IMG/VR virus record: IMGVR_UViG_3300011115_000289
Coordinates: 1-48,499 of that record
DNA: 48,499 nucleotides
Reading direction: 5' to 3' (one strand)
Source: a virus
Shown here piece by piece: positions 8,782-9,431 of the stretch (within the stretch, counting starts at the first letter, position 1; each line of letters opens with the position of its first letter). The notes beneath the pieces are model-generated. The model was not told the origin of the DNA. It ran no database searches and saw nothing but the letters and a program-made list of their open reading frames with translations. Both the position numbers and the translations under genes were made by a program.

Positions 8782-8810
8782 TTGACAAGCCCCTTTGGAT
8801 ATGTTACAAT
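8782..8810 (+). promoter_or_regulatory. Strong sigma70-type promoter for the structured leader and the gene at 9432
   Basis: TTGACA (8782-8787), exactly 17 nt, TACAAT (8805-8810, five of six). This is the consensus spacing and one of the best promoters in the window. The palindrome AATGGCT-TT-AGCCATT (8808-8823) overlaps the -10 and the expected start at about 8817, so the promoter may be repressible. About 615 nt of untranslated sequence follow before the next start codon. Confidence 0.7.
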
Positions 8811-8823
8811 GGCTTTAGCCATT
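8808..8823. promoter_or_regulatory. Operator-like palindrome over the promoter start
   Basis: AATGGCT-TT-AGCCATT, 7-bp arms with a 2-nt centre, overlapping the -10 and transcription start of the 8782 promoter. Either an operator or a 5'-terminal RNA hairpin. Confidence 0.45.
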
Positions 8824-9431
8824 TGGGAAATCGTGCCCATACCTTGGTTTTTCCTACCCGTAGGAAAGTTCTTTAAAAACATATTAAGCGTAGGTGTCCC
8901 AACACCTACAGTAAACCGCCGCTTGCTCGATGCAAGAAGCTAGCAGATGCAGACTAATAAAAATAAGAGGCACTAAAACTCCCTGAATGTTGGTCATGGA
9001 TTCTTCCACTAGTGAATAGGCGTGCTGTACCCAGTCAGCATACTAGTGTGACTCAGCTAGTAGAAAAGCAAAACGACACTGCCTAAATGGGTGTGGCTCT
9101 CTGCATGGAAACATACACGGCCACTCAACAAGACGGAAATTATTTATGGCGAACGCAATAGTCGACACAGTCCACCACCTACATATACGGGGGCACGAAG
9201 CTATTGTTAGTAGTGCATACGTTGACACCTCTTGGGGATCGTGAACCAACTCAGTTGGAATATGCACGACCGACAAACCCTATCGCAGTTAAAGCCAAAC
9301 ACATAAAGAGTAAGCACTACGCATGGTGAAACAGCCGTGTTAACAATACAACAAACAAGTTGTATGCAACTGGGAGGGGATCATGTCCCCTCTTGGGTGT
9401 GTACCACATCAACTCGAAACGGAGAAAACTT
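8811..9431 (+). ncRNA. Candidate structured leader or non-coding RNA
   Basis: About 615 nt with no convincing reading frame, downstream of a near-consensus promoter. It holds at least six perfect-arm hairpins. These are TTCCTAC palindrome copy d (8851-8866); GTAGGTGT-CCCA-ACACCTAC (8890-8909); CTTGC-TCGAT-GCAAG (8922-8936); a nested pair CACTAGT (9007-9013)/ACTAGTG (9042-9048) enclosing TGCTG (9023-9027)/CAGCA (9036-9040); CCAAC-TCA-GTTGG (9246-9258); ATACAAC-AAACAA-GTTGTAT (9346-9365); and GAGGGGA-TCATG-TCCCCTC (9374-9392). The last is 39 nt before the next ATG. I cannot match it to a known RNA family. It could be a long regulatory leader, a separate small RNA or an origin segment. Confidence 0.45.
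8851..8866. repeat. TTCCTAC palindrome, copy d
   Basis: TTCCTAC-CC-GTAGGAA, perfect 7-bp arms, about 35 nt downstream of the expected start of the 8782 promoter. Here it would be transcribed, so it may act as an RNA element or as a roadblock site. Confidence 0.75.

Follow-up and report, generated by a model that had tools for sequence, protein, structure and literature searches.

A predicted structured untranslated RNA with an rRNA-operon-type boxA at the head of the DNA-replication operon of an uncultured aquatic phage group

In lambdoid nut sites boxA precedes a boxB to which N binds, and N is required; the put RNA of HK022 is short and boxA-free, contacts the polymerase directly and suppresses termination independently of Nus factors. 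There are few large phage RNAs whose fold is conserved, and they have no known function. ROOL and GOLLD, which belong among these, are often found near tRNA islands (PMC12286853). In the leaders of rRNA (rrn) operons the elements are ordered boxB, boxA and boxC, and boxA by itself is sufficient for rrn-type antitermination (PMC10250234); CRISPR arrays too are protected by the rrn complex (PMC12691694). In E. coli, Rho termination caused by a 567-nt noncoding 5'-UTR is relieved by the rrn boxA, and nutL RNA at a high level has been reported to titrate Nus factors and lower rRNA (PMC4807359). Here we describe an uncultured aquatic phage group that, judged from its sequences, starts its DNA-replication operon with an untranslated structured RNA of about 600 nt that carries a boxA.

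The window, that is, the whole stretch of DNA analysed, is a virus record from IMG/VR with a length of 48,499 bases, and the features of the element and its operon are listed in the table. A preliminary description had placed a near-consensus promoter with an overlapping palindrome before the element; both were confirmed (palindrome AATGGCTTTAGCCATT, 8808-8823), and in those homologs whose 5' end is present, TTGACA and a TATAAT-like -10 occupy the corresponding position. The description had also held that the following ~615 nt (8817-9431) contain no credible gene, and this stood: the longest stop-to-stop frame (78 codons, minus strand) contains a stop in each of the 3 nearest relatives checked, and in relatives the remaining frames are interrupted by stops or gaps or lack whole segments. 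A hidden protein was rejected because no open frame is conserved among relatives. Upstream of the element lie 2 intrinsic-terminator-like hairpins (7691-7732). They fall in a second long intergenic stretch (7670-8182, ~513 nt, 74-85% conserved within the clade of the window) which, besides these two terminators, holds an AT-rich run and a boxA-like TCTCTTTAATAATA at 7955, and which is possibly an origin or a second RNA. The palindrome TTCCTAC-NN(N)-GTAGGAA recurs between genes at 7064, 7669, 8098, 8851, 9654, 11173 and 13621 of the window (0.12 expected by chance for the form with a two-base spacer); other carriers have palindromes of their own at matching places (TTCTAACCTTAGAA, TTATAACCTTATAA, CTTAAGCTTAAG and ATCTAATATTAGAT among them), resembling lineage-specific operators.

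Table. Positions of the RNA element, its modules and the downstream operon in the window.
Feature	Position	Strand	Remarks
sigma70-type promoter TTGACA-N17-TACAAT	8782..8810	+	-35 8782-8787, -10 8805-8810; 11/12 match, extended -10 (TG)
5' hairpin TGGG..loop AAATCGTG..CCCA	8824..8839	+	directly after start site; compensatory changes in homologs
palindrome TTCCTACCCGTAGGAA	8851..8866	+	phage-specific; one copy of the repeated intergenic TTCCTAC-NN(N)-GTAGGAA
boxA-like GTTCTTTAAAAA	8868..8879	+	as in rRNA operon leaders; near-invariant alignment columns
hairpin GTAGGTG-TCCCAA-CACCTAC	8890..8909	+	separates boxA from domain A; at this spot other lineages bear palindromes of their own
domain A	8913..9073	+	P1, pseudoknot, P2, P3, P4
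pseudoknot, domain A	8915-8916/9034-9035	+	
P1 helix, domain A	8917-8920/9019-9022	+	
P2 hairpin, domain A	8921-8939	+	
P3 hairpin, domain A	9024-9039	+	
P4, domain A	~9040-9063	+	
domain B	9074..9289	+	closing helices P5a and P5b, P6, P7, P8; lineage-specific insert between P6 and P7
P5a closing helix, domain B	9078-9082/9285-9289	+	
P5b closing helix, domain B	9089-9092/9277-9280	+	
P6, domain B	9093-9098/9119-9124	+	
P7, domain B	9236-9243/9265-9271	+	
P8, domain B	9246-9249/9255-9258	+	
optional 3' module	9290..9412	+	conserved hairpins ATACAACAAACAAGTTGTAT (9346-9365) and GAGGGGATCATGTCCCCTC (~9374-9392)
zinc-ribbon-like protein, 72 aa	9432..9650	+	first downstream gene in the window phage
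rest of rightward operon	9763..30043	+	replication genes
DNA polymerase	20702	+	
exonuclease	22609	+	
helicase	~23750	+	
primase/helicase	27185	+	

Homologs were collected from a starting set of 80 viral loci retrieved with the 72-aa zinc-ribbon protein, 17 of which matched the leader by blastn, and the set was extended by pattern scans with conserved pieces and by profile search. This yielded 45 non-redundant loci with a homologous element, the window included, nearly all of them IMG/VR viral contigs from metagenomes; most carrier records hold a single copy, as counted by domain B. The carriers resemble the window phage in TerL (51-98% identical in 12 of the 16 carrier records tested) and in DNA polymerase (52-88% identical in 14 of the 16), and the element is syntenic with both genes in them. 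The nearest isolates by TerL (~45% identity) are phages such as DSL-LC04, 023Pt_psg01 and Pelagibacter phage HTVC027P, and the element was not found in the fetched stretches of these three by profile or covariance model. No DNA similarity was detected by blastn of three versions of the element in 50,697 phage records, and the domain B covariance model returned only already-known members from the other zinc-ribbon loci. Scanning genomes with a 17-nt signature gave 71 matches, about the chance level, of which the sole real homolog (L195) lies at 1503-2187 of a contig of 4.4 kb assigned to a Rhodobacteraceae MAG and is possibly phage contamination or a host hint. Three related contigs (G014, G020 and G022) have a single in-frame TAG or TAA within the DNA polymerase match, for which sequencing error, a broken gene and stop reassignment are candidate readings.

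Every one of the 42 homologs that reach the 5' end has the rrn-type boxA GYTCTTTAAMAA (scored as GYTCTTTAAMA close to the transcript 5' end), at a near-constant place ~50 nt past the start site, and TCTTTAA is exact in 37 of them. It sits 3' of the start-site hairpin, the arrangement seen in rRNA leaders, and this hairpin, in the position of boxB, covaries (pair 48-57, two-set E 0.003; double changes in the window at columns 43/62, 46/59 and 48/57). Matching boxA sequences were found in the rrn leaders of Undibacterium (ACGGTTCTTTAACAATTAACAG, also GTTCTTTAACAATTAACAG), Chitinilyticum (ACGATCTTTAACAAATTACAG) and Sinimarinibacterium (GCTCATTAAAAAACAAAG, with a TCATTAA variant also seen in homologs L143 and L148), a comparison that covers a few beta- and gammaproteobacteria chosen for convenience. 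No boxC was clearly identified in the homologs, where some lineages have only a TTTTTGTGT-like piece, and no leader-trailer helix of the rrn kind was found, the element's own 5' and 3' segments pairing no better than mismatched controls. Compared with lambda nut, boxA is present, hairpins follow it, no N-like protein was identified and the order resembles rrn. Among fetched loci lacking the RNA, the search for promoter and boxA pairs gave 1 weak match only, in an unrelated setting. The strong promoter and the invariant boxA would also suit a decoy, an abundant RNA that titrates NusB/S10 and lowers host rRNA synthesis, for which nutL RNA is a precedent (PMC4807359); each RNA has a single boxA, however, and the covarying fold downstream would be left unexplained, which makes a decoy very unlikely.

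The region had been called hairpin-rich, and the hairpins are real, but their number by itself is weak evidence: single-sequence folding gave -174.1 kcal/mol against -159.2 for shuffles (z -1.76), and 1 of 20 shuffles was as good. Since the folding energy is only modestly better than that of shuffles, the structure claim rests on comparison rather than on a hairpin count. The covariance analysis that the preliminary description proposed as a refuting test did not refute it: conserved pairing was found, with covariation that is strong and phylogenetically deep. An RNAalifold consensus on 36 sequences, some closely related and together of moderate alignment depth, showed numerous compensatory changes and recovered the 5' hairpin, P1, P3, P4 and the domain made up of P5-P8. 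Compensatory changes beyond phylogeny were assessed against a tree-based null in which Fitch substitutions were redistributed along a FastTree tree (our own script, not R-scape): the top ranks of the scan were mostly helix pairs, the best two exceeded all 40 null alignments, and 18 of the 64 structure pairs were significant in the two-set test. The same scan exposed an extra pair (186-308), a pseudoknot between the pre-P1 strand and the P3 loop, formed by two base pairs with perfect covariation (22 GC, 14 AU). Base pairing was retained in 93% of cells in the domain A alignment (25 sequences; 33-38% when the structure was slid; 14 pairs changed on both sides) and in 89% in the domain B alignment (15 sequences; 32-47% when slid; 16 pairs changed on both sides); in both, the counts greatly exceeded those of shuffled as well as slid controls. 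When a structure was derived with the window's clade excluded, 79% of the cells in this clade were paired by it, and 83% in the window (29-42% when slid; 30-42% for the window by itself), with 14 double compensations in the window; the pseudoknot pair had been added to this structure by hand from the full alignment and is therefore outside the held-out test. The window was also found, at 9174-9289 (45 bits, E 1e-7), by a covariance model whose 15 sequences did not include it. Repeated ACTAGT/GCTAG pieces reported earlier are accounted for as the two arms of helix P4. On this comparative evidence the element is an evolutionarily conserved structured RNA.

The covariation is of the RNA-helix type on the plus strand (155 G-U cells against 66 A-C), which argues against a replication-origin transcript or primer. 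Such a transcript would fit an element that heads replication genes and adjoins the conserved AT-rich non-coding stretch at 7670-8182, but no iterons were seen, and the cumulative GC skew, although low here, has a broad minimum that is not specific to the element; we consider an origin role highly improbable.

The fold is modular. Two homologs (L005 and L015) have domain A together with the 5' hairpin and boxA but no domain B, and the 3' module differs in other homologs. In three others (L013, L018 and L012) P1 carries a longer, different variable arm (~130 extra nt) that is nearly identical among the three, which reads as module swapping inside the RNA. The domain B model matches the window twice (9074-9165 and 9174-9289), as if the 5' strand had been duplicated (ACTGCCTAAATGGGTG and CCACCTACATATACGGGGGC). 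Neither the two-domain fold nor the boxA nor the position heading the replication operon had been noticed in the preliminary description.

Only a zinc-ribbon protein had been reported to follow the element. The 72-codon ORF is indeed there, without a Pfam or PHROG match, yet most relatives have a different gene in first place (MKVAELIQ..., MGLETVVL... and others). Because the gene behind the RNA is not constant across relatives, regulation of the zinc-ribbon gene was rejected as its role, and the RNA appears to serve the operon rather than one particular gene. In the carriers checked, DNA polymerase lies ~10-12 kb downstream on the same strand. The 5' position and the pseudoknotted domain A, with its highly conserved loop and joining residues, could be those of a leader that senses a ligand or protein (riboswitch-like or autoregulatory), yet a first gene that is not conserved offers no fixed translation target, a terminator or anti-SD switch was not found, palindromes and modules by the ribosome site vary freely, and the 5' and 3' segments fail to prefer each other; we regard a sensing leader as improbable. 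The sensing of host state, an RNA decoy and an origin transcript, all suggested in the preliminary description, found no specific support, and its broader proposal of a regulatory RNA or a leader that does something is supported.

Because boxA alone should suffice for antitermination, the conserved 400-nt fold must do something further, a point that weighs against the explanation favoured below. The main rival is a large phage RNA that would act in trans in the manner of ROOL and GOLLD, released by processing, with boxA giving only Rho protection while the operon is read through. The fold, which includes a pseudoknot and long-range closing helices, is far more complex than boxA would require, its modules are gained and lost, and its size and phage origin are like those of ROOL and GOLLD (PMC12286853). 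Against this, the element always heads the operon: wherever the sequence allows, a same-strand gene with a ribosome site follows close behind in the homologs (mostly <200 nt), with no clear intrinsic terminator between, only short T runs. The window moreover has no tRNA genes, and Rfam gives no match to either family. A trans-acting RNA is possible but doubtful.

We favour, with confidence that is evenly balanced, a new large structured untranslated RNA family that would be the leader of the phage replication operon, transcribed in a boxA/Nus-modified, Rho-resistant mode, its fold acting in cis. The sequences show the conserved structured RNA, its conserved boxA and its position at the operon head; transcription from the promoter, Nus-dependent antitermination and action in cis we infer. 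By analogy, a 615-nt untranslated phage leader would face the same Rho problem as the 567-nt E. coli 5'-UTR, and the operon head is probably transcribed by a boxA/Nus-modified, Rho-resistant polymerase. The strong promoter is followed by a hairpin, an rrn-type boxA and a one- or two-domain folded body with a pseudoknot; boxA would recruit host NusB/S10 (with NusA, NusG and SuhB) onto RNA polymerase, and the modified, Rho-resistant enzyme would traverse the ~600 untranslated nt and so arrive at the replication genes. The folded body may hold or modify the elongation complex in cis within the leader, as nut and put sites do. Promoter, hairpin, boxA and domain A would be the constant core, with domain B and the 3' module as dispensable additions. 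Counting against this explanation are two other promoter-like sites with an 11/12 match that lie between genes of the replication operon (12962 and 25324), no excess of intrinsic terminators in that operon and no co-evolving leader-trailer helix.

The element offers a directly testable tie to known host machinery, boxA/Nus antitermination, and this link, together with its fixed place heading the replication operon, makes its role testable by a simple reporter. If the explanation is true, it would be a naturally occurring instance in which a virus has adopted the rRNA mode of transcription for a non-coding RNA of its own. More tentatively, the element might be a phage counterpart of the rRNA operon, a large pseudoknotted RNA served by the host rRNA antitermination machinery, whose body would be an undescribed class of RNA machine or polymerase-modifying element.

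The absence of a known family, as the preliminary description had it, was upheld: Rfam 15 (including ROOL, GOLLD, HEARO, OLE and twister) gave 0 matches in the window at the gathering score and, at E<=10, only a 20-bit chance match to SNORA2 on the minus strand, and homolog L021 gave no match. Like ROOL and GOLLD, the element is a large, ornate, pseudoknotted phage RNA; unlike them in sequence and structure, it stands at the head of a replication operon with a boxA. With the boxA leaders of CRISPR arrays it shares a boxA that would shield a long non-coding transcript from Rho, whereas here a covarying fold and protein genes lie downstream and CRISPR repeats are absent. With lambdoid nut and HK022 put it would share the role of an RNA that leads an early phage operon and modifies the elongation complex, and it is set apart in that a hairpin comes before boxA and a 350-450 nt fold after it. 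From the proteobacterial rRNA operon leader (boxB-boxA-boxC) it differs in its non-rRNA body, in the protein genes that follow and in having no clear boxC and no leader-trailer helix, and the two are alike in their strong promoter, hairpin and boxA, followed by a long untranslated structured RNA.
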